Shown one piece after another: positions 2,136-19,283 of a stretch of 50,096 nucleotides of DNA. The DNA lies in contig JACZWL010000022.1 in assembly GCA_022572185.1 (NCBI GenBank), positions 1 to 50,096 of the forward strand. Direction: 5' to 3'. The position numbers and the translations under genes are program-made. The stretch's first letter is position 1; each line of letters starts with the position of its first letter. The stretch comes from Pseudomonadota bacterium (GTDB lineage Bacteria > Pseudomonadota > Gammaproteobacteria > Steroidobacterales > Woeseiaceae). The notes beneath the pieces are model-generated. The model worked only from the letters and a program-made list of their open reading frames with translations. It did not search any database and was not told the DNA's origin.

Positions 2136-2564
2136 TTAGTCTTTTCTGAGTGACTCCAGGTATGCAATCTGTTCTTCGTTCAACAGGTTCTTCAGACGAA
2201 TGAGCATTGCGACCTGCTGCTTCTTGACCTGGTTTTCTGCGAGCAGTGCATCATTGACGTAGTCCAGTACTATGTCCTCGTCGATAGGATCTTCATCCAG
2301 CGCGGCCAGCACTTTCTGATAGGCCTCGCGCAGATCCCATTCATGTTCGGCGACGTTTGCCTGCACTTGCACTACGGCTGCCTTGATTCCCGTGAACTGC
2401 TCCTTGGTCAGGTTCAGCTCGTCCTGATTCTTGAGAATCAAATCGGGTGCAAATAATTTACCCTTGAACGGGTCAGGATTTTTGCCTCTGCCCTGCGCCA
2501 TGGCAAAGCCGGCGCACAGCATCAGACATGCAATGACTGCAATTCCATTCTTGACAATTTTCAT
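2136..2564 (-). CDS. Spy/CpxP-like periplasmic protein (putative stress or metal sensor)
   Basis: This 142-residue protein has a clear Sec signal peptide (MKIVKNGIAVIACLMLCAGF, cleavage after AMA-Q). The mature part is all-helical and charged, with an LNLTKEQ motif and an NLLNEEQIAYLESLRK end. Both resemble the LTxxQ repeats of the Spy/CpxP/CnrX heavy-metal-resistance superfamily. Such proteins are periplasmic chaperones or metal sensors. The gene is the last of a three-gene minus-strand unit; its ATG overlaps the stop of the anti-sigma gene (ATGA, 2561-2564), indicating translational coupling. No histidine/cysteine-rich metal site is obvious, so the signal sensed is unknown. Confidence 0.7.
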   Translation of the reverse strand: MKIVKNGIAVIACLMLCAGFAMAQGRGKNPDPFKGKLFAPDLILKNQDELNLTKEQFTGIKAAVVQVQANVAEHEWDLREAYQKVLAALDEDPIDEDIVLDYVNDALLAENQVKKQQVAMLIRLKNLLNEEQIAYLESLRKD

Positions 2565-2923
2565 AACAGTGGTCCTTCGTCTAAATAGTTTGTTTCAATC
2601 AGCACAGGTAATTCGCCGTAAATATCGAACTGATGTTCGGGCAGCAAAACATCGCTCGGCGCCAGCCAATGCGTAGAGCTCATCAAGTCTTCCTCTGTCA
2701 GATAAACAACTGCGACATCATTTCCGTTTGGCAGCCACGCCAAAAACAAGGTGACGACAACCGCGGCCGCAATTGCAGTGCCAGCAAATCGCTGGTAACG
2801 CGACCTTGACTCGCTATAGCGTTTTTCCGCGTTGGCCCACATTGCATCGAACCCGGGCGCATCGCCGCCCTGCCTTGATTGCAATGCACTTCGCAGTCTT
2901 TCTTTCAGTTCTTTGTCGTTCAT
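2561..2923 (-). CDS. Putative one-TM anti-sigma factor
   Basis: This 120-residue protein has a cytoplasmic, charged, helical N-terminal part (about residues 1-45, MNDKELKERLRSALQSRQGG...), a single membrane segment (about 46-64, AGTAIAAAVVVTLFLAWL) and a ~55-residue periplasmic tail. That layout fits membrane anti-sigma factors of the CnrY type: a short N-terminal region holding the sigma factor, and a periplasmic tail facing a sensor. It lies between an ECF sigma gene and a Spy-like gene. I chose the ATG at 2923, where the helical domain begins; the frame stays open 17 codons further upstream and would then overlap the sigma gene. I recognise the architecture, not a named family. Confidence 0.65.
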   Translation of the reverse strand: MNDKELKERLRSALQSRQGGDAPGFDAMWANAEKRYSESRSRYQRFAGTAIAAAVVVTLFLAWLPNGNDVAVVYLTEEDLMSSTHWLAPSDVLLPEHQFDIYGELPVLIETNYLDEGPLL

Positions 2924-2951
2924 CGTTCGGCTCTTGTTCAACTTGCTCGAT

Positions 2952-3482
2952 TCAATCGGCCTCTCGCAAAGCATTCAGCCTTCCTGTCAGAGCCTTTTTT
3001 GCACGGTCGTAATGAACTCGTCCTGTACCGACCGATACGCCCATGACGGCTGCCGCTTCTGCAATCATCATATCCTTGCAAAAAACCAGTTCCGTGATGT
3101 CACGTTGCCTGACCGGCAGGGCCTCAACTGCCTTCCATACCTGGTTACTCTCCACGCTGCCTGTTTCGATCTCGCCCGGGCCGGCGTCTTCTGCCTCGGC
3201 GGCAAATGTATTGATCAGCCGCATCCTTACGGCAATTTGCCGAAAGCGGCTGCGGGCGAGGTTCCGTATGACACCGAAGAGAAAAGTCTTCAGTGACGAT
3301 GTATTGTTAAATCGCGCCGCACCGCTCAGCACCTGGACATAGGCCTCTTGCATCAGATCCTCTGCCGCCGGCCGGTCGAATCCACACCGGCTAAGGGCCC
3401 AGCCGTAGAGCTGGCTGTGTATGGCCTCCAGTGCCTGACGTGATACATGTGGGTTATTAACAAGCGCATCGTCGTCCTTCAT
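2952..3482 (-). CDS. ECF-type RNA polymerase sigma factor
   Basis: This is a 176-residue ECF sigma-70 factor. Region 2 is visible at about residues 16-85 (AAEDLMQEAYVQVLSG, then FNNTSSLKTFLFGVIRNLAR). Region 4 is at about 112-170 (ALPVRQRDITELVFCKDMM, then a helix-turn-helix around AEAAAVMGVSVGTGRVHYDR). The linker is acidic. The ATG at 3482 was preferred over one four codons upstream because a strong GGGAGGGG ribosome-binding site lies just before it. It is the first gene of the sigma/anti-sigma/Spy-like unit, so it probably drives a periplasmic stress or metal response and autoregulates. Target genes are not evident. Confidence 0.9.
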   Translation of the reverse strand: MKDDDALVNNPHVSRQALEAIHSQLYGWALSRCGFDRPAAEDLMQEAYVQVLSGAARFNNTSSLKTFLFGVIRNLARSRFRQIAVRMRLINTFAAEAEDAGPGEIETGSVESNQVWKAVEALPVRQRDITELVFCKDMMIAEAAAVMGVSVGTGRVHYDRAKKALTGRLNALREAD

Positions 3483-3509
3483 AACCCCTCCCAAATACTT
3501 GGTGGCGTG

Positions 3510-5738: not shown

Positions 5739-8700
5739 ATGGACGGCGAAAAACACTGGCAATTCTGGATCGACCGCGGCGGAACTTTTACCGATATCGT
5801 CGCTTTGCGGCCGGACGGGGAGCTCGAGACTGCGAAATTACTGTCGGAGAACCCCGAGCAGTATGACGATGCGGCAGCCGAGGGAGTGCGTCAGGCAATA
5901 GGCCGCTGGTCCTCGGACGGGGGCAGCGAAGCGCCAATTGATGCCATCAAAATGGGCACAACGGTTGCGACGAACGCACTGCTGGAGCGCCAGGGAACAG
6001 ACACGGCTTTGCTTGTTACGCAGGGATTCGGTGACAGCCTGGCGATCGGTTATCAAAACAGGCCTGACATCTTTGCATTGAACATCGTCAAGCCTGCACC
6101 GCTCTATAGTCGAGTAATTGAAGCGCAGGAACGGATCAACGCAGCAGGCGAAGTGCTTACGCCCCTGGACGAAGCCGAAGTTACAAGAGCGCTTGAACAA
6201 TGCATTAGCGATGGCATTTCATCGGTCGCGATCTGTCTGGTGCATGGTTACCGATACCCGGCGCACGAAGAACGTATCGCCGAGATTGCGAAAGACTTTG
6301 GATTTCAGCAGATTTCCGTTTCGCACGATGTAGAGCCGCTCATAAAATTCATCAGTCGTGCTGAAACGACACTTGCCGATGCATATCTCACTCCTGTCCT
6401 GAATAACTATATCGGCAGCTTGAGAGGCGCTCTGGCCAAAATCGAAGTTCCGCGCCGCATTTTGTTCATGCAAAGCAACGGTGGGCTCGCTCTTGCCGAG
6501 AACTTCCGCGGCAAAGACAGCATCCTGTCCGGACCCGCTGCCGGCGTTGTCGGCATGGTTGAAACCGCTACGGCGGCAGGATTTGAAAAGCTGATTGGCT
6601 TTGATATGGGAGGCACATCGACCGATGTGTCTGCCTACAGCGGCGAATACGAACGGAGTAACGATTCGGAAGTCGCCGGCGTGCGCCTGCGCGCGCCGAT
6701 GATGCGAATTCATACGATTGCGGCGGGCGGCGGTTCACACCTTCGTTATTCGGACTCGCGCTATCAGGTCGGACCAGACTCGGCCGGAGCAAATCCAGGC
6801 CCGGTTTGCTACCGGCGTGGCGGGCCTCTGACCGTTACCGACGCGAATGTGTTGCTCGGCCGAATTCCGGTCGACTACTTTCCAAGCGTTTTTGGCCCGA
6901 CCGCGGACATGCCGCTGGACAAGGAAGCGGTTCTATCGAAGTTTGATGAATTGGCGGCGGAGATTTCCAGGGACAGCGGTGTCAATGCAAGTCCGGAGGC
7001 CGTCGCTACCGGTTTCCTGACGATTACTGTCGAGAACATGGCGAACGCGATTCGCAAGATCACGGTAGAGCGTGGGGAAGACGTTCGCGATTTCACACTT
7101 TGCTGCTTCGGCGGCGCGGCTGGCCAACACGCCTGTCAGGTCGCTGACGTTCTGGGTATCAGAACGATCTGGCTCCACCCGCTGGCTGGTGTGCTCTCCG
7201 CATACGGCATGGGTCTGTCCAACATCCGCGTTGAACAGCAGCAATCGATAGACATTGAATTTTCTGCCGAACACCTTGAGCAGCTTCAGGAGCCGATCGC
7301 GCAGCTACTCAATGTCTGCGATGAAATGCTGGCAGAACAACAAGTCCCCAGGAACAACCGTCAGTTCGAAACGCGGGTGGGCCTGCGCGTTGTTGGTTCG
7401 GACACGATTCTGAATGTGGCGCCTTCGGCATTCGACGGGATGGAGGATGCATTCAGGCAGGGGTATCGCAACCGTTTTGGTGCCGACGTCGGGTCCGACA
7501 AGCTGATCATTGCAACGATTCGTGTCGAGGCTACCGGTTACGAACAGCTGTTTCGCGATCCGGCGATCGATGCCGGAGCGGCTTCATCGCCCGATGGTGC
7601 CGCGAATGTGTGGCTCGGAAACGGCTGGCAAGAGTTACCGATATTCAAGCGAAGCACTCTCGGGTCCGGTACCGAAATCGATGGTCCCGCCATCGTTGCG
7701 GAAGATAATAGTACGACCGTCATCGATGCCGGTTGGTTCGGTCGGGTGAATAAATGGGGACACCTCTTACTGGAAAAGCATAAGCATGCTGAACCTGTAT
7801 CCGATAATATTGGCGAGGACGCCAGGCCGGATCCAGTCAGGCTCGAGGTGTTCAACAATCTCTTCATGCACATTGCCGAGCAAATGGGCACCGTGCTGCA
7901 GAATACGGCTATCTCGGTGAACATTCGCGAGCGCCTCGATTTCTCCTGCGCGTTATTTGATGCAGAGGGCCGGCTGGTATCCAACGCGCCACACATGCCT
8001 GTGCATCTGGGCTCCATGGGCGAAAGCGTACGGAGCGTTATTGATGCCAGGGGTAAGGATCTCTTGCCGGGCGACTCGATAATGCTCAATTCGCCGTACG
8101 CGGGCGGCACCCATCTTCCGGATCTCACTGTTATAACGCCCTACTTCGCGGCTTCAGACCGGCCTCTGTTCTTTTTCGCGTCGCGTGCACACCATGCAGA
8201 CATCGGCGGCATCACACCAGGATCAATGCCTGCGGAAAGCAGGCATATCGATGACGAGGGTGTCCTGATCGACAATTTTGTACTCGTTCGTGGCGGCAAG
8301 TTTCGAATGACGGAGGTACGCGAAGTTCTGCTGGGCGCGAAGTATCCGGCCCGTGATCCTGACAAGAATGTCGCTGACATGCGGGCACAGCTCGCGGCCA
8401 ACCAACAGGGCATCCGTCAACTCGAGAAAACGATAGAGCGCTATGGGCTCACAACGGTGCAGCGATACCTGCGTTTCGTCCGCGATAACGCTGCCGCGAG
8501 CGTCAGGCGGCTCCTCGGTTCGCTCGAAGACGGCAGCTTCGGCTATGAGCTCGATTCGGGCGAATACATCAAAGTGACCGTCACGGTCAATCACGAGAAT
8601 CGAGAAGCGACCGTCGATTTCACCGGCACATCTTTGCAGTCGGACAATAACTTCAACGCCCCGAGTGCCGTTGCCCGAGCGGTAGTTCTCTACGTCTTCC

Positions 8701-9356
8701 GCAGCCTGATCGCAGAGGACATTCCGATGAACGAGGGATGTCTTGAACCACTCAATATTGTCATCCCCGAGGGCAGCTTGTTGAGCCCGAATTATCCGGC
8801 CGCGGTCGTCGCCGGCAATGTCGAGACTTCACAATGCGTAACAGATGCTTTGTTCGGCGCACTCAATGCGCTCGCTGCATCGCAGGGAACAATGAATAAT
8901 CTCAGTTTTGGTAATGACAATTTTCAATATTACGAAACCATTGCAGGCGGAGCCGGCGCGGGGCCGGGCTTTGACGGCGCAGACGCAGTTCAGACGCACA
9001 TGACGAATTCACGCCTGACCGACCCCGAAGTCCTCGAGCAGACGTTTCCGGTGGTGCTCGAATCGTTTTCGATTCGGAGAAATTCGGGTGGTCCGGGAGA
9101 ATGGCATGGCGGCGACGGCACTGTCAGAAAAATCCGCTTTCTCGAACCGGTAGAGGCATCGATTCTTTCGAATCATCGCCGCATCGCACCGTTTGGCCTG
9201 GAAGGCGGTCAGCCGGGCAAGACCGGCCATAACTTTGTCGAGTATGAGCCAGGCGAACGTGAAGAGCTTGGGCCAACCGCCACGGTGAAACTCCGTGAGG
9301 GAGCTTGCCTGATTATTGAAACACCGGGCGGCGGCGGTTTCGGTAAACCGCGCTAA
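5739..9356 (+). CDS. 5-oxoprolinase/hydantoinase, fused HyuA-HyuB (ATP-hydrolysing)
   Basis: This 1205-residue protein fuses the two halves of the oxoprolinase/N-methylhydantoinase family, as in eukaryotic OPLAH. Such enzymes open a lactam ring (5-oxoproline to glutamate) using ATP. The HyuA half (about 1-690) begins [19 protein letters not shown], a phosphate-binding motif, and has a second nucleotide motif at [15 protein letters not shown] and the [10 protein letters not shown] stretch. The HyuB half (about 695-1205) shows [29 protein letters not shown] and [16 protein letters not shown]. The ATG at 5739 was chosen because it directly precedes the conserved RGGTFTD; the frame is open 86 codons upstream but that region is the inverted repeat. 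Substrate specificity within the family cannot be read from sequence. Confidence 0.9.
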
Positions 9357-9531
9357 GGAAATCGCCCGTCTAATGTCGTCACACTTCGAACGGATTAAGT
9401 CAATAAATGTCATTCAGCACGCTGCTAATCACATTGGTGGGCGGACCGGAGCCCCTAAAGAGTTTTTTTGGCGCCTGGCTAGCCGACCCCGGTTCATGGC
9501 GACCGATTAATGAACACCGGCTCACACACAA

Positions 9532-9539
9532 AATTTCTA
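9532..9539. repeat. 8-bp target-site duplication, left copy
   Basis: AATTTCTA immediately outside the left inverted repeat of the insertion sequence. It is identical to 10948-10955. Eight-base duplications are typical of ISL3-family insertion. Confidence 0.92.
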
Positions 9540-10947
9540 GGCTCTTCAGGAAAATTTATGGGTAAAAATATAACGGATATGTTGCAGCGGAGATAGTTTT
9601 CTGGATTTTGAGGGTAGAGCATCCTGCCCCCACTCTGAGAAGATGAAAGTGTCGAGCCACCATCTGACGGAGCAAAAGGAACAGAATGCAGATCAAGACT
9701 ATCCTCAATCGAGTGCAGAAATTCAAATCATTTGTAATACGGATCGGTGCGTTGGGTGGAGGGAGCGCCGGTTCCGACGGTTGAAGTTGAGATACACGCT
9801 CGCTTGAACAGCCGGCCGCTGTGTAGCGAATGCGGTCGCCGGAGACCGGGATATGACAGATTGCCGGTGCGGCACTTCGAGTTTATCCCGATGTGGGGCC
9901 ACAAGGTGTTTTTTGTGTATGCACCGCGCCGGGTTGAGTGTTTGGATTGCGGGATCCGGGTAGAACGGCTGCCGTGGGTGGCGGGCAAACGCCGGCTGAC
10001 GGACGCGTATACCTGGTTTTTGTCAGGCTGGGCGAAACGGCTGAGCTGGAAGGAAGTGGCCGAGGGTATTTCGCACCACCTGGGATCATGTGTTCTGCTC
10101 GGTGGAGCGTGCTGTGAGCTGGGGACGGGAGCATCAGGACCTGTCCGGTGTTCAGGCGATTGGTGTTGATGAGATCGCTTGGCAGCGGGGGCATCGCTAT
10201 CTGACGCTTGTTTACCAGATTGATAGTCACTGTAAACGGCTGCTATGAATCGGCGAGAAGCGCACAGTCAGGAGCTTGCTGCGCTTCTTTCGCTGGTTCG
10301 GCAAAGAAAGAAGTCAGGCACTGGGTTTTGTCTGCAGTGACATGTGGAAGCCGTACTTGAAGGTGATTGCCAAAAAGGCCGGCCAGGCCATCCACATCCT
10401 GGACCGGTTCCATATCATGTCACACCTCTCGAAGGCCATCGACGAAGTCCGCGCCCAGGAAACGAAAGAGCTGAAGGAAAAAGGCTATGAGCCGGTACTG
10501 ACAAAAACACGATGGCTGCTGCTCAAGCGACCGGAGAATCTGACCGACCAACAGGACACGAAATTGTCAGAGCTGCTGCAGTACAATCTGAGATCGATCA
10601 GAAGCTATCTGCCGAAAGAAGAGTTTCAGCTCTTCTGGTCGTATATCTCGCCCTACTGGGCCGGCGTGTTTCTGGATAAATGGTGCACCAAAACCATGCG
10701 CTCGAAGATTGAACCGATGAAGAAAGTGGCCAGGATGCTGAAACGGCACCGACCCCTGCTATTGAACTGGTTTCGGGCCAAAAAACAATTTTCCAGCGGT
10801 ATTGTGGAGGGTTTTAATACCAACGCAAAACTGACTACCAGAAAAGCGTACGGTTTTCGGACCTACCATGCGGCTGAAATCGCTTTGTATCATGCGCTTG
10901 GAGCATTACCTGTGCCGGAAACTACCCACGAATTTTTCTGACGAGGC
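9540..10947 (+). mobile_element. ISL3-family insertion sequence, 1408 bp, with intact ends
   Basis: The element is bounded by imperfect 25-bp terminal inverted repeats (9540-9564 and 10923-10947, 20 of 25 positions matching; outer end GGCTCTTC versus GCCTCGTC) and flanked by an exact 8-bp duplication AATTTCTA. It carries a single transposase reading frame of ISL3 type, which is disrupted. Intact ends and an exact duplication argue that insertion is relatively recent or the ends are conserved, while the enzyme is dead, so movement would need a transposase supplied in trans. Confidence 0.92.
9686..10941 (+). pseudogene. Decayed ISL3-family transposase (two frameshifts, one nonsense codon)
   Basis: Reconstructed, this is a ~417-residue DDE transposase. 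The N-terminal zinc-binding region (LCSECGRRRPGYD, then VECLDCGIRVERL) and the IGVDEIAWQRGHRYLTLVY catalytic segment identify ISL3. The C-terminal half (SDMWKPYLKVIAKKAG, then the HILDRFHIMSHL helix and SGIVEGFNTNAKLTTRKAYG) is intact. Three lesions are visible. An extra A near 9738 separates the ATG at 9686 from the next frame. An extra G within 10064-10066 shifts out of the frame that continues FRTTWDHVF. A TGA at 10246-10248 stands where tryptophan is expected (RLLWIG). None looks programmed: no slippery A-run is present at the shifts. Confidence 0.9.
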
Positions 10948-10955
10948 AATTTCTA
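10948..10955. repeat. 8-bp target-site duplication, right copy
   Basis: AATTTCTA directly after the right inverted repeat, identical to 9532-9539. Confidence 0.92.
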
Positions 10956-11146
10956 ATTCTCCCCCATGCACAGATAGTACAGCCAAACGGCGTGACTGAT
11001 GATTTCCATCGGAAATCGACGTCCATGAAATAGTGGTTTCGTGTCTTTCATGGCCCCAGTCTGTCGGACCTGGACTTAACCTAACTTGACAGTACTAGCG
11101 ACCACCAGCAGGGTGACAGTATCAGAGTTGATGGAGCCTACAGCGC

Positions 11147-12163
11147 ATGTTGAAGGAATCGTTTTACCGACCTCTCGGTCGCACGGGCTTGAAAGTTTCG
11201 CCCATCTGCTTGGGCACAGACAACTTCGCCAACCCAACTCCGGAAGACGAGTCTGTTAGCATTATCAACTGTGCCATTGATAACGGTATCAATCTGATCG
11301 ACACCTCCAACAGTTATGCCGCCGGCGAATGCGAAAAAATAATTGGTCGGGCCCTCAAAGCCAATCGGCGACGTGATGATGTGATTTTGGCAACCAAGGT
11401 GCATTACCCGGTTGCCAACAAGGGCATCAACGACCGTGGCAACTCTCGAAAACATATCATTAAAGCTTGTGAAGATTCTCTTCAGCGCCTGCAAACCGAC
11501 TACATCGACATCTACCAGACCCATCGTGTCTGTATGGAAACAGAGTTGGAAGAAACGCTGGGCGCGCTTACTGAACTTCAACGGCAAGGGAAAATCAGAT
11601 ACTGCGGCTCAACCACGTCTCCCTCTTGGAAGATAGTGCAATCGGCGTTGCTGGCTGAGTTCAAAAACCTCACTCGTATGGTTTCTGAGCAATTGCCCTA
11701 CAATCTCCTCGACAGAAGAGTGGAAAATGAAATACTTCCTGCTTGTGAGTGGGCCGGACTGGCCGTTCTTGTTTGGTCGCCTCTGGCCATGGGCATACTT
11801 GCCGGACGATACAATAACGACGACCCCGAAAGTTTTAACACAGCCCGATTTCAACGTGGTGGTATCTACGCTGAACGTATCACTCCTAAAGCGGTAGATG
11901 CTGGAAAACGATTTGTGCAACTTGCGAAACAATTTGATATTCTCGCCGCCCACCTCGCTGTGTTGTGGGTCAAAGACCAACCCCATGTAACAGCCCCTCT
12001 CGCCGGCCCAAGAACCCTGGACCAACTCAAAGACCTTCTTCCCGTAATGGAAATGAGTTTGAGCGATGAAATTCGACAGGCCTGCGACGAACTCGTCCCG
12101 CCAGGAAGCGCTGTGGCCGACTTTCTCAACTCTGCCCCCTGGTCAAAACAGAAACTGATCTAG
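11147..12163 (+). CDS. Aldo/keto reductase
   Basis: This is a 338-residue NADPH-dependent oxidoreductase of the aldo/keto reductase superfamily with a (beta/alpha)8 barrel. The start is typical (YRPLGRTGLKVSPICLGTDN). The catalytic tetrad can be placed at D52 and Y57 (LIDTSNSYAAGECE), K84 (LATKVHYP) and H126 (DIYQTHRV). The cofactor-binding end includes APLAGPRTLDQLKDLL. The closest style is the YajO/Tas subgroup, acting on small carbonyl substrates; the true substrate is unknown. A GGAG ribosome-binding site precedes the ATG. It converges with a FAD oxidoreductase gene 13 nt away and lies about 200 bp right of the insertion sequence. Confidence 0.9.
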   Translation: MLKESFYRPLGRTGLKVSPICLGTDNFANPTPEDESVSIINCAIDNGINLIDTSNSYAAGECEKIIGRALKANRRRDDVILATKVHYPVANKGINDRGNSRKHIIKACEDSLQRLQTDYIDIYQTHRVCMETELEETLGALTELQRQGKIRYCGSTTSPSWKIVQSALLAEFKNLTRMVSEQLPYNLLDRRVENEILPACEWAGLAVLVWSPLAMGILAGRYNNDDPESFNTARFQRGGIYAERITPKAVDAGKRFVQLAKQFDILAAHLAVLWVKDQPHVTAPLAGPRTLDQLKDLLPVMEMSLSDEIRQACDELVPPGSAVADFLNSAPWSKQKLI

Positions 12164-12176
12164 TAGATCATTTTGT

Positions 12177-13562
12177 CTAGAGAATTCCTTTGGATGGGGA
12201 GTTTACGATCTCAGCCATGAGATTTTCGTCGTCGTATCTTGCCAAGCTCAGTTGGTTCGCGAAGGCGGGCAAATCGCCATCAGCCATCCAGGCTGCACAA
12301 ATTGCGCCCGCGGCACAGGCCGACATGCTGCCATAGCCAGATAAAGCACTGGCGATAAACGCTCCGTCGACGCCGAGTGGACCAAGAAGCGGCCAGTTTT
12401 CGCGCGTCATCGTGTAATAGCCACCGTAATGCGTCCAACGGCTTGGAAATGACTCGGAGTATCTTTTCAGTGGCGGATTGAGTGCCGCAGCGGACCGCAG
12501 AATGATTTCGGGGAATTGTGGATGAAAGTGCGGATCGTTTGCCAACTCCTGTTGTGGCTCGCTGGCTTCTCTATTGAACGCCCAACCAAGCTTGATCCAG
12601 GTTCCATTGTCGCCGCCGTCCGGACGACAATGTGTTCCGCCGCGGATTGGCCTGAGCAGCCATGCCATGTCCGGGTCATCGGCAAGCAATTCCCGTTCTT
12701 CAGCGGTCCAGTCCAGTTCCTGATCGTCCAGATCGAGTGAGAACGGTAGCTGCCTGGGTATTGCGCCGTACTGATCGTCAAACGCCAACTTCTGCTGAAA
12801 CACGTTCGCGATCGGCAGATCGACGCCAATCATTGCCGCTATTTCTTTCGCGAAGGGCCCTGCAGCGTTGACGATCATCTCGACATTGATTCGCTCGATG
12901 CCATCGGATCCCTCGACTTCAAGCACAAATCCCTGGTTCTGTTTAATGCCTTTGACCTGAACGCTCAGTCGTTTACCCCCAGCCTCCTTGATGCGTTCCA
13001 ACATGTATTGGCCCATTTGTTGACCACTGATGTCGCCTGCCCTGCGAATATGAAGCACATTGGCTATGTCGGGGCTGAATGTGGGGAACGTTTGTCGAAT
13101 CAGATCCTGGTTTGCCAAGACATCAACACCGTCGGGCGCTTCCGTCCAGTTCGCGGAACGAGTCGGCGGATAGGATTTTGGTGATGGCCCGCGATGAATG
13201 CGAATCAGGTCAGATTCTGTTCCCCCGTAACCTGCATGCAATTCGGCGATTAAATCGTCGATATCTGTCCGACGCGTCGCCAACGCGTAACCGCGTCGTG
13301 TCATATGCAGGACGTTTGATGATTCAAGCGCGATACGCTGCATAAGATCGATGCTGTAGTTCGTGAAGTCGACCATGGTCGGATGTGGCCACCAATTGCG
13401 ATAGTTGTCACCCGACTGTGCGCTTGTATAGGTCATAGGCTGCCTGCTATCGACTAGGAGCACGGATCTCTTTTGATATTCAGTACACAAATAGTAGGCA
13501 GTAGCGATGCCGGCAAAACCCGCACCGATCACTGCGATTTCCACGTCGCGACTAGTATTCAA
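12177..13562 (-). CDS. FAD-dependent oxidoreductase (DAO family)
   Basis: This 461-residue flavoprotein of the D-amino-acid-oxidase/glycine-oxidase fold has an N-terminal dinucleotide-binding motif (VEIAVIGAGFAGIATAYYL, residues 7-25) followed by an acidic residue region binding the ribose (VLLVDSRQP). The middle has the substrate-domain pattern ending in IVNAAGPFAKEIAAMIGVDL. The C-terminus carries the second FAD contact (NWPLLGPLGVDGAFIASALS, then GYGSM). Members oxidise primary or secondary amines such as sarcosine, dimethylglycine or D-amino acids; the substrate cannot be assigned. The start is ATG at 13562. It converges with the aldo/keto reductase gene. Confidence 0.88.
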   Translation of the reverse strand: MNTSRDVEIAVIGAGFAGIATAYYLCTEYQKRSVLLVDSRQPMTYTSAQSGDNYRNWWPHPTMVDFTNYSIDLMQRIALESSNVLHMTRRGYALATRRTDIDDLIAELHAGYGGTESDLIRIHRGPSPKSYPPTRSANWTEAPDGVDVLANQDLIRQTFPTFSPDIANVLHIRRAGDISGQQMGQYMLERIKEAGGKRLSVQVKGIKQNQGFVLEVEGSDGIERINVEMIVNAAGPFAKEIAAMIGVDLPIANVFQQKLAFDDQYGAIPRQLPFSLDLDDQELDWTAEERELLADDPDMAWLLRPIRGGTHCRPDGGDNGTWIKLGWAFNREASEPQQELANDPHFHPQFPEIILRSAAALNPPLKRYSESFPSRWTHYGGYYTMTRENWPLLGPLGVDGAFIASALSGYGSMSACAAGAICAAWMADGDLPAFANQLSLARYDDENLMAEIVNSPSKGIL

Positions 13563-14374
13563 TGGCCGTCTCTATTCACTGTCAAACGATATTATGCTGC
13601 GTTTGTTGGTTAGATGTGCGTAATCTATCCGTGCCTAATTGACTTTCAAGCAGCAGGTGGCAGGTAATATACACTGGGACAGTGTGAACGCGAGCGGGAA
13701 TCGTTCGGACTTACGAATTTCTGTATTGCGTAGTTGAACATCCGGCGGACCGTGGGCCTTAGCCGACGCTGGCGAAATCCATGGCGAGTCGTGCACGAAT
13801 CGATGCGCTATCGAACAAAATGGTCGGGGTGGCCGGATTTGAACCGGCGGCCCCTGCCTCGCGAACGCAATCCGACACTCGTTTGTTATTCAAGAACGAA
13901 TGAGAACAATCACATGCGGTGTCTGTGGATATCGCTCGATCACATTGAATCACGCTGGATATGATTCGCACTGTGGCAGAATTGTGGCAACGGCGAATGG
14001 ACGATTCGAGCACTATGAAAACAGCGTTCTAGCCAGCATAATTCACCAAGGATCGCGGCTTCTGGGCGAGGGCTCGGCCGGTTGAGGGCGGGGCCTGGCG
14101 CGACAAAATCGCCGGGAGCGATTTTGGTCAGCGGCGAAGTTGCTGACCCGCAGGGCGAAGCGCAGGACGCGCGACGCAAACCCATAGCAGTAGGTAGCTA
14201 GGGGTTGAGTGAAGGCCTAGCTCAGGCGTTCGAGGACCAGCCAGGTCCGCGATAGGCGGACGGCGGTGTTCAGCGTGCAATCAGCAATCAAAGTCTCGAT
14301 ACCTCAAAACACCGTGAACGATCAATCGCTTCCAATCGGCCGGCTGCCGCCTTGATGAAATACGCAGACTGATA
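13563..14374. other. 812-bp gap: tRNA-like fragment, hairpin, no convincing gene
   Basis: Only short reading frames without recognisable content occur here. The gap holds the tRNA-Pro-like 3' fragment at 13821-13870 and a perfect 8-bp hairpin (CAAAATCG 14104-14111, CGATTTTG 14119-14126, loop CCGGGAG). It separates the FAD oxidoreductase from the phage-type sheath gene. Confidence 0.6.
13821..13870 (-). pseudogene. 3' fragment of a tRNA-Pro(CGG)-like gene, possible attachment-site remnant
   Basis: Read on the minus strand, the segment ends in CACCCCGACCA (acceptor strand plus encoded CCA). It contains a perfect T-arm (GCCGG, TTCAAAT, CCGGC) and a variable region, then a degenerate anticodon arm with loop TTCGCGA where a proline tRNA would have TTCGGGA. 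The matching 5' half (CGGGGTG acceptor strand, D-arm) is absent upstream. Integrases often use tRNA 3' halves as attachment sites, so this could be an island boundary. No integrase gene is visible in the window. A decayed tRNA duplicate is the alternative. Confidence 0.65.
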
Positions 14375-15928
14375 TTATGCGCACTCGGCCATCACCGGTG
14401 CGAATGCAGTCGTTGCCACACGGCATCCCGAAGCGGTTTGATGAAGCGTAAGTGATACTGGCTCGTCGGCACCGAGCGGATGAAATGTCAGTAGCACGGT
14501 GATGCCGCGATCCGGATTTATCGAATGCGACTGCAGGCCAGCATCACATTGAACAAGAAAATGTTCATCAAGGAATGCACCGGCGTCCGCCAGGTAACAC
14601 ATGTAGGCATGCACCTGTGCCTGAATTGTCTCCGTAACCTGTGCTGCATCCGACTCAAAAACAGCCCATCGTGTTGATCGTTCTATCGCATTCGTAATCA
14701 TCAGACAAAGTCTTCTGACGGTCAGGCTCGTAAACTTCCTGTCCATCTGGATGCCGCGTCCCAGAGTGACAGAACCGCACAGTGTTGCACGCCCCCCCGT
14801 ATTGCCCGCGATCACGTTCAGTCCCTCCTTGACCAGCAAACGGGCATTATCAAACGTCACTACCGTAGCCGGCTCGAGCGTCCTCTTGAATCCAAGGCCG
14901 TACTGATCCAGGTCTTGCCAGGGGCCCTCAGTTCTGTCGAGCTTGCAAAGCAGCCCCGCGATCGCGCCCCCTGCCGCATGTGACGCTGACTCTTCGTCCT
15001 GCCTGGAACGCATGCGTGGATAGTAAGCAAGAATATTGGGGCTCGAGTAGCCGGAATCCCTGATACTGGCGACCGCATCCTGGGCAGATGTCCAGCTCCC
15101 GGGTGGATCCATAATCAACATGGCACCCCGTTTTCGGCAATAGAGCTCTGCTGCCAACATGGCGGTCGGGCCCAGGTCCATATGCCTGCCAGGCGGCGGC
15201 ATATAGAGAATATCGAAATGCTCGATCTGGTTCAGAGAAAACAGGCCGGTACCTTTTGCTGCGGACCCAATCAAGTCGTAATCGGACAATGCGCTGCCAT
15301 CACTGCCGCGTTGAGCGCGCCCGATATAAGGGGGCCCAAACTGGAATCCGGATCCCATTGTCGCCATTGGACGGCCGCCAGGTAACGGTGTTTCTACCCG
15401 CACAAGCGAAGAGCTCAACAACGCGTCGCCCATAAATGAACTTTCACCTTCGACACAATGCAGGCGACGGTAGATTTCCTGGTCGGCCACAAGACCACTG
15501 TCGGGTGCCACTCGTTGAACAGTCAGATTGAAGTGTTGTTCGTCTTCATCATCAATGCCGTCGTAGTCGATCGCTGCTCGAATATTTTCAGTCGACCCGG
15601 GCTCGAGGGCGCGCAACACCATAACGCCCCCTTTCGCCGGCAAACAGATCATCGCTCCGCGGACGTTATTCGCGACGCGGACGATGTAGAGCTCCCGGCC
15701 GCCGTGCTCGAAGAACTGTTTGACGGCCGGTCCGAGGCTGCTGCGATGCCAGTGACCACCAAAGCGGCGCCGGAACCCGGCAAAATTATTGATAAGAGTC
15801 GGTGCGTTCAGGGGGCCGCGGAGCGCACGGCCGATGAAAGCGGCTATGGTGTCGGGTGAGACATCGATGGGTTGGCCCATCGGCGCGATTTCGGTGACCG
15901 TGATGCCACCGTCCTGAGCATCTGACAA
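14375..15928 (-). CDS. Orphan phage/contractile-injection tail sheath protein
   Basis: This 517-residue protein belongs to the contractile tail sheath family. Typical marks are the N-terminal IAAFIGRALRGPLNAPTLIN segment, then FRRRFGGHWHRSSLGPAVKQ and FFEHGGRELYIVRV. The middle has LYMPPPGRHMDLGPTAMLAA and AMLIMDPPGSW, and the C-terminal domain contains a NVIAGNTGGRATLCGSVTLG stretch. In a phage or extracellular injection system it would wrap the inner tube and contract. Here there is no tube, baseplate, spike, terminase or ATPase gene nearby, so it is an orphan. The start is TTG at 15928, with GGAGATAGG before it. It is divergent from the PLP enzyme gene. Confidence 0.82.
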   Translation of the reverse strand: MSDAQDGGITVTEIAPMGQPIDVSPDTIAAFIGRALRGPLNAPTLINNFAGFRRRFGGHWHRSSLGPAVKQFFEHGGRELYIVRVANNVRGAMICLPAKGGVMVLRALEPGSTENIRAAIDYDGIDDEDEQHFNLTVQRVAPDSGLVADQEIYRRLHCVEGESSFMGDALLSSSLVRVETPLPGGRPMATMGSGFQFGPPYIGRAQRGSDGSALSDYDLIGSAAKGTGLFSLNQIEHFDILYMPPPGRHMDLGPTAMLAAELYCRKRGAMLIMDPPGSWTSAQDAVASIRDSGYSSPNILAYYPRMRSRQDEESASHAAGGAIAGLLCKLDRTEGPWQDLDQYGLGFKRTLEPATVVTFDNARLLVKEGLNVIAGNTGGRATLCGSVTLGRGIQMDRKFTSLTVRRLCLMITNAIERSTRWAVFESDAAQVTETIQAQVHAYMCYLADAGAFLDEHFLVQCDAGLQSHSINPDRGITVLLTFHPLGADEPVSLTLHQTASGCRVATTAFAPVMAECA

Positions 15929-16073
15929 AACCTATCTCCGCGATTATGAGTCAGATATCCGTGCGCGTAGTGTAATGGCGCCGGAACGAGATGCCAACCA
16001 GCGCAAGCAATATAACTGTTGGCGCTTTACGCGCGTCTCGGCTAGGCTTGGACAGGACCATTGCAGGATCGTC

Positions 16074-17138
16074 ATGTCAGACACTGATTACTTGTCCGCG
16101 CTGTTTCCGAAGACCGGGGAGACTCTCAAACGGGAGCGCCTGGCGAACCTGCCGACGCCGGTAAGCGATATCACGGTCGATCATCCGTCCGGCCGACATT
16201 CGCTATCGATAAAGCACGACAACCTGACCGGCGATCTGTATGGCGGAAACAAGGTTCGAAAACTCGAATACCTGTTACAGCACGCTCGCGAAAAACATCG
16301 CAGTCGCATCGCGACGTTCGGTTCCGTCGGTTCCAATCATGCCCTGGCAACTGCGCTCTACTCTCGCAAGTTGGGCTTTGATTGCACCTGTTTCCTGTCG
16401 CATCAGGAAAAAACGCCGATGGTACCCGCGACACTCAACATGCACATCACGAGCGGCACCGACCTGGTGAGATACGGAGGATCGTACGCGAAACGAATTG
16501 CGACACTGCGGCAGCACCTCTGGGGCAAGAATGCCTGGGTCGTGCCAATGGGCGGATCTTCGTGGCTCGGCGCAGTTGCTTTCGTCAACGCGGCGCTGGA
16601 ACTCGCTGAACAGGTGGCCACGGGCGTCGTTGCGGCACCGGATAGGCTTTATGTCGCGACCGGCACGATGGGCACTGCTGCCGGCCTGGCGATAGGGCTC
16701 GCGCTTGCTGAACTACCGACCGAAGTTCAAGCGGTACGCGTTTCCGACCCTGAGATCATGAATGAGGAAGCCTTGCGCAGACTCATAGCAAAAACTGCGC
16801 TGATGCTGCGGCGGATAGACGGCAAAATCCCCGCTGACCTTGAGAGCCGGGTCAGGATCGTCGTGCGCGATGAGTTTTTCGCGGGCGCTTACGCCAGGAC
16901 AGATACCGCAACAGACGCCGCCGTGCGGTTCGCGGAAGATCAGCTGCATATCAAACTTGACACAACCTATACCGGCAAAGCGATGGCAGCATTGCTAAGC
17001 GATTTCGATAATCCAGAACTGGCGGATAAGAAATTCCTGTTCTGGAATACTTACAGTTCCGCAGAGCTGCCGGTGCCGGATGGCGAACCGCTGGACAAAA
17101 CCGCTTTGCCTCCGGAGTTCATGCGTTATTTCGAGTAG
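16074..17138 (+). CDS. PLP-dependent D-cysteine desulfhydrase / ACC-deaminase-like enzyme
   Basis: This 354-residue fold-type II PLP enzyme belongs to the 1-aminocyclopropane-1-carboxylate deaminase/D-cysteine desulfhydrase group. The PLP lysine lies in GDLYGGNKVRKLEYLLQ; the phosphate-binding and substrate loops are TFGSVGSNHALATALYSRKL and VATGTMGTAAGLAIGLA; the end has FWNTYSSAEL. It would release ammonia (and sulfide, if D-cysteine is the substrate) plus an oxoacid. Which of the two activities applies cannot be decided by eye. The ATG at 16074 was chosen because homology begins near DYLSALFPKTGETLKRERL; the frame is open 33 codons further upstream. It is divergent from the sheath gene. 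Confidence 0.85.
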   Translation: MSDTDYLSALFPKTGETLKRERLANLPTPVSDITVDHPSGRHSLSIKHDNLTGDLYGGNKVRKLEYLLQHAREKHRSRIATFGSVGSNHALATALYSRKLGFDCTCFLSHQEKTPMVPATLNMHITSGTDLVRYGGSYAKRIATLRQHLWGKNAWVVPMGGSSWLGAVAFVNAALELAEQVATGVVAAPDRLYVATGTMGTAAGLAIGLALAELPTEVQAVRVSDPEIMNEEALRRLIAKTALMLRRIDGKIPADLESRVRIVVRDEFFAGAYARTDTATDAAVRFAEDQLHIKLDTTYTGKAMAALLSDFDNPELADKKFLFWNTYSSAELPVPDGEPLDKTALPPEFMRYFE

Positions 17139-17289: not shown

Positions 17290-18471
17290 CTATTCGACCA
17301 ACCTGACCGCTTCGTCTGATTCCCCAAGCCCGATTGGCGCATCCAGAAGTTCCCTGATTTCAGCCAATGTCGGTGCGTCCGGATCAATCTCGACGGTATT
17401 TCGAACCAACCGCGCCCTGCCATAAAGCTCATCGGCGTCGCCGAGGAGAACCCGCACAGGCACGCCGAGCGCATCGCCCGCGATTGCTTTTGCGTAGTCT
17501 CGTTCGGCCTGATCGTTAAACGCGCCGGAGGTATTTCTCACCCTGTCGAAAATCTTTTGCAAACGCTCGTCTGCTGTTACGGCATCATCCTCCAGCGGAG
17601 AGTGGCTTTCCAGATAGAGCTCGCCTTCCAGCCAACCGACAAGAAACGGTTCGTTGACGATGATGACTGATTCGCCAATGTCGACCATCGAGTAAAGGCG
17701 CTCGATGTTTTCCGGATAAAGGCGCACGCAACCGTGACTGACGCGCATACCAATACCATACGGCTGATTCGTGCCGTGAATAAGGTATCCGGGTAGGTCG
17801 AGTTGCAATACGTGGGAGCCGAGCGGGTTGTCCGGGCCCGGCGGCACGACCGATGGCAGCGGGTCGCCATTCTCCTTATGTTCCTGCTGAACGGACCAGG
17901 GCACATACCAGTGGGGATCACGCGCTTTCGCAACTACTGTCGTTTCGCCGAGCGGCGTTTCCCAGCCGACGCGGCCGATGCCGATCGGGTACGTCAGGAC
18001 CTGGACTGGTTCACCCTCGTTGACCGCCGGGTAGTAAAAGAGCCGCTTCGACGCGATATTCAGAACGACGCCGCGCCGGGGCGTGTCCGGCAACACGTAT
18101 TGCGTCGCCAATAACACCGGCGTGTTGTCTCCGGGCAACCAGGGATCGATGTCCGGATTTGCAGCAACGAGGTCGTCATAGCCGAGCCCATACTCGCGCG
18201 CCAGGTCTGAAAACGTGTCTGTCTCGCGAGTGAATACAATCTGGGGTTCACCGACGACCGTCTGTTCAGGTGATTCCAGAACGAAGTAATTTCGGCTGAT
18301 CGGCTCGAGCAGCGGCCGCTTGTCGACCGGCAATGCCGTTGGTCGCTCCTCACGCTGTCTTGCGTCCAGAAAGTCCTGAATTGTCATACAGCCGCCCAGC
18401 TGAAGCGCCAGGAACAGCATCAGAAACCGTAAAAATGGGGGGGTCTTGTTTGGCAATGCGTCAGCCTGCAT
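17290..18471 (-). CDS. L,D-transpeptidase (YkuD domain) lipoprotein with LysM-like region
   Basis: This 393-residue periplasmic cell-wall enzyme has a lipoprotein signal ending LALQLGGC (Cys28). A LysM-like peptidoglycan-binding segment follows at about 78-126 (FSDLAREYGLGYDDLVAANP). The YkuD catalytic domain (about 134-278) has HGTNQPYG with H232 and the active-site SHGCVRL (Cys248). It fits the ErfK/YbiS/YcfS/YnhG type, which crosslinks peptidoglycan 3-3 or anchors Braun-type lipoprotein. A ~110-residue C-terminal extension is less common and of unknown role. The ATG at 18471 was chosen because it lies after the upstream methyltransferase stop and gives a short basic n-region. Same strand as the methyltransferase and M48 genes. 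Confidence 0.87.
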   Translation of the reverse strand: MQADALPNKTPPFLRFLMLFLALQLGGCMTIQDFLDARQREERPTALPVDKRPLLEPISRNYFVLESPEQTVVGEPQIVFTRETDTFSDLAREYGLGYDDLVAANPDIDPWLPGDNTPVLLATQYVLPDTPRRGVVLNIASKRLFYYPAVNEGEPVQVLTYPIGIGRVGWETPLGETTVVAKARDPHWYVPWSVQQEHKENGDPLPSVVPPGPDNPLGSHVLQLDLPGYLIHGTNQPYGIGMRVSHGCVRLYPENIERLYSMVDIGESVIIVNEPFLVGWLEGELYLESHSPLEDDAVTADERLQKIFDRVRNTSGAFNDQAERDYAKAIAGDALGVPVRVLLGDADELYGRARLVRNTVEIDPDAPTLAEIRELLDAPIGLGESDEAVRLVE

Positions 18472-18515
18472 CCGGAGTTTGGTCGATTTTCTCAGAAAAT
18501 GCCCGAAGACACTAA

Positions 18516-19283
18516 TCAGGCACGGCCGATCTTCAGATTCAGTGGCCACGAGACCTGGCGGGTACCTGCACCCCATGCCTCAAGGAGCCGACCCTCGATC
18601 AGCGACACGGGATCAGATCCCTTGTCCATCAAGTATCGCCGGGACGCTGACCAGGTCCGGAGGTAGCCGAGCATTTCTGCAGCCATCCAGTCGATCTGCA
18701 TGGCGAATTCGGGCGGCGTAATCGACGGCATTGGCAGCTCGATACTCTGGTAGCCCTCCTCGACCAGCTTGCGCTCTGGCGGCCAGTAACTGCGCAGGAT
18801 ATCAGCATAGAGTTCGTTGAGCAGCAGGTCGCAATCCGCATCGACAAAACATCTTTCATAGGACCAGACTGCCAGCACACCGCCCGGGGCAAGCACCCTC
18901 TGAGCCTCGTCGAAGAAACTCGCGATATCAAACCAGTGTAGTGCTTGTGCGACCGTAATCAGGTCGATCGAATTGTCATCCAGGCCGGACTCTTCTGCCC
19001 TGGCGACATGGAACTCGATCCCGGGCTTGCTTTTGGCGGACTGGATCTGGGCTTCGCTCGCGTCGGTTCCGATGACCTGCTCAAAGTATTCGGTAAGCGC
19101 CCGCGCTGCCTGGCCGTTGCCGGTCGCGCAGTCCCAGGCAAGCTGACGTCTGGCGCAGCAATCGGCCAGGAAACTGAACAGTGATTCCGGATAGGTGGGA
19201 CGGAATTCGGCGTACGAGCTCGAGTGGCCCGAGAAATGATCCTTGAACGATTGCTCAGACGAAGCGGTATCGACTGTCGTCAT
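18516..19283 (-). CDS. Class I SAM-dependent methyltransferase
   Basis: This 255-residue soluble methyltransferase resembles the Tam/UbiE-like group. The SAM-binding motif I is LAWDCATGNGQAARALTEYF (about residues 48-67). The acidic end of beta-2 is at VIGTDASEAQI. Motif IV lies in IDLITVAQALHWFDIASFF, and motif VI at VLAPGGVLAVWSYE. The N-terminal FKDHFSGHSSSYAEFRPTYP is typical of the subgroup. The substrate is unknown. Its ATG overlaps the stop of the M48 peptidase gene by one base (TAATG), so the two are coupled; the L,D-transpeptidase follows after 44 nt. Confidence 0.87.
   Translation of the reverse strand: MTTVDTASSEQSFKDHFSGHSSSYAEFRPTYPESLFSFLADCCARRQLAWDCATGNGQAARALTEYFEQVIGTDASEAQIQSAKSKPGIEFHVARAEESGLDDNSIDLITVAQALHWFDIASFFDEAQRVLAPGGVLAVWSYERCFVDADCDLLLNELYADILRSYWPPERKLVEEGYQSIELPMPSITPPEFAMQIDWMAAEMLGYLRTWSASRRYLMDKGSDPVSLIEGRLLEAWGAGTRQVSWPLNLKIGRA

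Follow-up and report, generated by a model that had tools for sequence, protein, structure and literature searches.

The window analyzed in this study, a stretch of 50,096 nucleotides from a member of the Woeseiaceae, a family that NCBI places in the order Woeseiales, contains an intact gene for a contractile-sheath protein with no injection gene among its scanned neighbors. Sheath proteins are generally seen as the engines of injection machines, and a lone sheath gene retained under strong selection, mostly within one neighborhood, across an order implies use of the fold beyond injection. An earlier note on this DNA had considered a remnant, a decoy, or part of a dispersed injection system, and had taken the intact frame to imply selection or recent arrival.

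Sheath Gene, Start Codon, and Leader

The solo sheath protein gene (14375..15928, minus strand) displayed an open frame along the full length of the ORF, coding for 517 amino acids from a TTG start. Conservation of the ORF in other genomes showed that it did not arise by chance. The TTG start is credible, given the GGAGA site at 15939-15935 upstream of it in the window sequence and the choice of TTG as the script-picked start in 62 of 83 lone relatives (hereafter solo sheaths). The source genome, a 3.14 Mb draft in 99 contigs at 96% completeness, carried one sheath copy.

A sigma-70-like promoter match (TTGGCA-17-TACACT; 15969..15997, minus strand) was located upstream of the sheath gene, the count being one match on either strand compared with a mean of 0.3 in shuffles. 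The family leader consensus includes TAGAAT at the -10 place, a GGAGA site, and a TTG start. In addition, a possible leader hairpin (15920..15956, minus strand) would span the TTG start, with the 5' arm ATCTGAC (15956-15950), GGAGA in the loop, and the 3' arm GTCAGAT (15926-15920) overlapping the TTG; it is suggestive only. Paired cells reached 95.5% across 54 of 60 leaders, a count flattered by the prior removal of six leaders (the near-duplicates L132 and L142, and L014, L011, L037, and L055 as off-pattern), and among all 60 leaders 42 had 7/7 pairs at the best of 30 places, a figure with no chance control. The covariation score was reached by 0/500 shuffles; pairs changed on both sides (1/7) were matched by 411/500 shuffles and the pair-type count by 170/500. 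Codons for Ser-Asp constrain the 3' arm as well, and the z-scores of six single sequences were weak (-0.8 to -2.0). An Rfam search near the sheath gene gave one match with an E-value of 0.47, far under the family gathering score. The TTG start and the hairpin might conceivably hold expression low.

Sheath Identity and Predicted Structure

The window protein matched the sheath-family profile phrog_23 (E 2e-31) and the sheath of a Streptomyces injection system in the PDB (E 1.4e-18, or 3e-43 with the family profile), its best PDB sequence relative being 8bky. The window protein itself scored below the Pfam cut-offs while 27 of 31 family members matched PF17482 at E<=0.1, NCBIfam gave no match to the window protein, and a PF04984 scan of the source genome returned nothing and so missed the sheath gene. 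A structural model from an alignment of 20 sequences, for which 14 viral-contig loci were added solely to deepen the folding alignment, had a pLDDT of 79 and a pTM of 0.76, with residues 1-17 and 501-517 below a pLDDT of 50. A first model from a six-sequence alignment was poor (pLDDT 44) and was discarded for the 20-sequence model. The best Foldseek match of the model was the sheath 9ezm (E 2.8e-26), and VIA comparison with 9gts gave a Z of 34.1 and an rmsd of 2.6 over 326 residues at 25% identity. By profile and predicted fold, the window protein was assigned to the contractile-sheath family, the predicted fold being that of a sheath subunit.

Gene Neighborhood

Pfam scanning of seven flanking ORFs identified a PLP enzyme, an FAD oxidoreductase, an aldo/keto reductase, an ISL3 transposase (two ORFs), a YkuD L,D-transpeptidase, and a methyltransferase; no phage gene, injection gene, AAA ATPase, or spike was found among them. 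The PLP-dependent enzyme (PF00291; 15975..17138, plus strand) is divergent from the sheath gene and adjoins it in most family loci, its likelier start by eye being the ATG at 16074. The L,D-transpeptidase was assigned by Pfam (17290..18576, minus strand), and a YkuD homologue lay at most eight genes from the sheath in 24 of 32 order loci and was unseen in the other eight. The commonest family gene order was lipA, sohB, M48 peptidase, YkuD, divergent PLP enzyme, and sheath, and in locus L114 the sheath gene directly followed YkuD on the same strand. The neighborhood was kept in most loci examined. Sheath identity to relatives also tracked that of several neighboring proteins (Spearman 0.78 for LipA, 0.74 for a 65-aa protein, 0.69 for the PLP enzyme, and 0.51 for YkuD), values that are not independent since every identity was measured from the window protein; M48, SohB, and oxoprolinase were not significant at 0.05 in the same test.

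A sigma-factor module (2136..3494, minus strand) was located about 10 kb from the sheath gene in the window. It included an ECF sigma factor homologue (2952-3494) from the same cluster as the homologue in locus L032, together with a possible anti-sigma (2561-2974) and a small exported protein (2136-2564), both assigned by eye and all on the minus strand. In many relatives, the sigma-factor module comes immediately after the sheath gene on its downstream side. The downstream module common to these relatives consisted of the ECF sigma, possible anti-sigma, and small exported protein genes followed by genes for DUF1800 and DUF1501 proteins, and occupied 11702-16102 in L032. The roughly 10 kb between the sheath and sigma-factor genes of the window hold the ISL3 transposase (9747-10941), apparently split into a 140 aa ORF with no Pfam match and a 221 aa ORF with DDE_Tnp_ISL3. 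Separately, a segment at about 13821-13880 (minus strand) resembled by eye a tRNA 3' end with CCA and may be what is left of an integration site; no tRNA was identified there by ARAGORN or Rfam.

Absence of Injection Partners

The source draft genome lacked matches to the PF06841 tube, Baseplate_J (PF04865), and the VipB/TssC type VI secretion sheath (PF05943), and a tube profile built from the nearest injection clusters found none in it even at E<=10. These components were also rare among relatives, with the PF06841 tube present in 5/107 family genomes and 11/296 order genomes, Baseplate_J in 2/107 family genomes, and VipB in 4/107. In a locus control with the closer tube profile, a tube was found beside the sheath in 0/83 solo loci compared with 23/25 comparison loci. 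Forty of the 83 solo loci spanned 12 kb or more and 40 were shorter than 9 kb, many comparison loci covered just 3-4 kb, and the 25 comparison sheaths had been picked by score and coverage rather than by known function. The two comparison loci without a tube were L056 (genome G097) and L105, the latter a 3.6 kb stretch. L056 and L057, both second copies from family genomes, grouped with the comparison sheaths.

Several of the nearest relatives among the loci listed (L116, L117, and L120-L122) were by eye clusters with tube and DUF4255-like genes, and also ATPase and DUF4157-like genes where the contig allowed. In locus L057 (genome G076, 8831-14746), the second sheath is of the injection type and adjoins a broken tube, with TPR and TIR-domain genes nearby; this locus is probably a decaying injection cluster. 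A lone sheath was also observed in another gammaproteobacterial family (L235 in genome G798, 8233-10463) with no tube in 18 kb, a sporadic second and possibly independent case.

The genome search for tube and baseplate genes and the survey of related genomes for orphan sheaths were both run, the former finding neither component in the draft genome and the latter no tube in any of 83 solo loci. Together with the Pfam assignments of the seven neighbors, these results bear out the earlier description of a full-length sheath gene orphaned from injection neighbors. The suggestion that it belongs to a dispersed injection system found no support, as the PF06841 tube was missing from 285 of 296 order genomes and from the source genome.

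Distribution, Inheritance, and Selection

A sheath match was identified in 92 of 107 family genomes, including 42 of the 45 of high quality. Uninterrupted copies of at least 490/517 residues were present in 82 family genomes and partial matches, which may reflect contig edges or decay, in 10; the remaining 15 had none. Thirteen of these 15 genomes are 2.0 Mb or smaller, and one genome that small has the sheath. Lacking in 13 of these 14 small genomes, the gene is dispensable, and the pattern suggests that it was lost as genomes shrank. Across the order, defined as the grouping used by the genome search and with sheath and tube counts assumed to cover the same 296 genomes, a match was found in 233/296 genomes and 58/68 genera. 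All but four of the 233 matches were strong (229 at E<=1.5e-45, including the broken copy of G637; weak in G478, G480, G486, and G672). Wider draws gave any match in 45/369 genomes of the class and 28/398 of the phylum, and scores above 300 bits occurred in order members only.

A tree of 66 proteins separated 41 solo sheaths, as one clade, from 25 comparison sheaths with an SH-aLRT of 100, the solo rows being 41 of the 83 (18 of 60 from the family and all 23 from other families). The partial L075 was left out of the tree. The solo part mostly followed families, and family f2 was not resolved as one clade. The dN/dS values of the five closest pairs were 0.060, 0.064, 0.079, 0.091, and 0.062, from a calculation on the top 40 of 107 pairs passing a k-mer filter, and displayed strong purifying selection. 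The sheath is a single chromosomal gene that was inherited mostly vertically and kept by selection.

Neither the family profile against viral contigs nor tblastn against 50,697 phage records recovered a relative. An injection-type sheath query against the viral contigs returned 39 loci. Among plasmids, 20 of 72,556 records matched, all below 32% identity. Three were opened: a Streptomyces plasmid carried annotated sheath, tail protein, DUF4255, and ATP-binding genes, and two rhizobial plasmid stretches were unannotated, yet a tube was found in both.

The earlier inference of selection from the intact frame agrees with the dN/dS of 0.06-0.09 and with presence in 92 of 107 family genomes. Its alternative of recent arrival is contradicted by a gene found in 233 of 296 order genomes that mostly follows families in a mostly kept neighborhood, and the order-wide presence, purifying selection, and conserved surroundings equally contradict a remnant. 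Neutral decay in relatives, a further point of the earlier note, was clear in one copy, that of G637, and may also lie behind some of the 10 partial matches among the 92 of the family.

Altered Constraints Compared With Tube-Linked Sheaths

In known sheaths, the N-terminal arm and the C-terminal region link subunits and meet the tube. Site conservation was compared between 41 solo sheaths and 11 of the 25 comparison sheaths, a small set of related sequences that all have an adjacent tube, scoring a site as kept if at least 90% constant in tube-linked sheaths and retained in at least 80% of the 41 solos. The tube-linked signature was kept at 3/19 N-arm sites, 12/18 sites at residues 31-110, 7/8 at 111-190, 21/64 at 191-395, and 10/70 at 396-500. 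Conservation was restricted to the solos at a further 18 sites, of which nine lie at 111-190. A C-terminal tail, which takes the solos 9-69 residues beyond where the other sheaths stop, was present in 41/41 solos and 0/11 tube-linked sheaths. Both termini are present in the window protein, with the conserved arm signature mostly altered. This pattern is read as a changed function in which the first half of the core would have been kept and the subunit-linking and tube-facing parts altered.

Proposed Role and Alternative Explanations

The reading that best accounts for these observations, with a probability of roughly 0.7 as a whole, is that the solo sheath is a contractile-injection sheath subunit that was exapted to act on its own in the cytoplasm, probably as a self-assembling scaffold that does not contract. 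The first part of this reading, exaptation without an injection machine, is very probable. An ancestor of the order would have acquired or retained the sheath gene alone, and the gene has since been passed on mostly vertically under selection. The solo sheath is unlikely to inject anything, as no tube or baseplate was detected in the genome. The mechanism itself is offered tentatively and at less than even odds: a soluble cytoplasmic protein may still self-associate through sheath-type contacts and serve as a scaffold that does not contract. Assembly of a lone sheath is physically plausible because a recombinant phage sheath forms tubes by itself (PMC6357053). Self-assembly may equally have been lost, since the subunit-linking N-arm and C-terminal region are the parts least like tube-linked sheaths. 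A rather doubtful extension is that most of this order of Gammaproteobacteria builds, without tube or baseplate, a novel protein that forms filaments or rings in the cytoplasm. In a literature search on orphan, solitary, or domesticated sheaths and on Woeseiaceae or Steroidobacter sheaths, with most subscription papers outside its scope, no such gene was described. Counting sheath matches as injection systems could miscall genomes of the order, and the gene offers a simple one-gene experimental system.

The strongest competitor, although still unlikely, is a non-polymerizing adaptor, a single chain whose sheath core would serve for binding other molecules, perhaps in envelope maintenance near the L,D-transpeptidase. 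The divergence of the N-arm and C-terminal region, the residues conserved in solos only with their concentration at 111-190, and the nearby YkuD homologue in 24 of 32 loci are all consistent with this role. However, the neighborhood may reflect nothing more than inherited gene order, YkuD was unseen in eight of the 32 loci, and by eye the sheath protein has no apparent signal peptide whereas L,D-transpeptidase acts in the envelope.

Less probable again is that the protein acts as a decoy or poison, a monomer resembling a sheath subunit that would insert itself into sheaths being built by phages, tailocins, or competing injection systems and block them. Retention of much of the sheath core with altered N-arm and C-terminal signatures would suit such a function, as would dispensability in small genomes. 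A rapid arms race is a poor match for the strong purifying selection and mostly vertical descent of the gene, and no close target for a decoy is known, given the lack of a relative in the 50,697 phage records or the viral contigs.

The two least likely alternatives retain a link to injection or phage ancestry. A dispersed injection system, with diverged tube and baseplate genes elsewhere in the genome, is highly improbable. The predicted sheath fold is intact, and injection partners could also escape Pfam since the solo sheath itself falls below its cut-offs; a tube may have diverged beyond the reach of PF06841 and the closer profile, the draft is 96% complete, and a few relatives hold other injection- or phage-type clusters (L058, L060, and L062, with ORFs judged by eye and a tube found). 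Against this, the tube occurs in 5/107 family and 11/296 order genomes compared with 92/107 and 233/296 for the sheath, Baseplate_J occurs in 2/107, and the closer tube profile was empty in the source genome at E<=10. Complete loss of tube signal is unlikely because seven tubes from the nearest injection clusters (one partial) share a mean column identity of 84%, and even a tube split in two was still recognized in G076 beside the injection-type sheath. The most remote possibility is that the gene is the residue of a prophage or injection cluster on its way to loss, as the broken G637 copy, a few partial copies in relatives, and the broken tube adjoining the second sheath of G076 stand against 82/107 family genomes with at least 490/517 uninterrupted residues, dN/dS of 0.06-0.09, no phage gene among the Pfam-scanned neighbors, and no tube in 83 solo loci.

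Comparison With Known Systems

The exapted scaffold proposed here can be set beside four described systems. Cis2, the sheath of the cytoplasmic contractile injection system of Streptomyces coelicolor (8bky, 8bl4, and 9gts), has the same fold as that predicted for the solo sheath (VIA Z 34.1). Its gene accompanies those for a tube and further components, and the protein builds particles that contract (PMC10066040). The solo sheath differs from it in having no detected partners and in its N-arm and C-terminal signatures. Cis2 of Halogeometricum borinquense (9ezm), the best Foldseek match (E 2.8e-26), belongs to a cluster of 14 structural genes (PMC11566945).

A model for how a lone sheath could work is provided by the polysheath of gp053, the sheath of phage vB_EcoM_FV3, which as a recombinant protein formed tubes without other viral proteins (PMC6357053). 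gp053 is a recombinantly expressed phage protein, whereas the solo sheath is a single chromosomal gene kept by a bacterial order. The HK97-fold cellular shells known as encapsulins are a precedent in kind for the proposed exaptation of the solo sheath, their fold being unrelated to the sheath fold. These shells derive from phage capsids, one virus structural protein having been retained by cells for its ability to assemble, and are proposed to compartmentalize proteins (PMC8987985).
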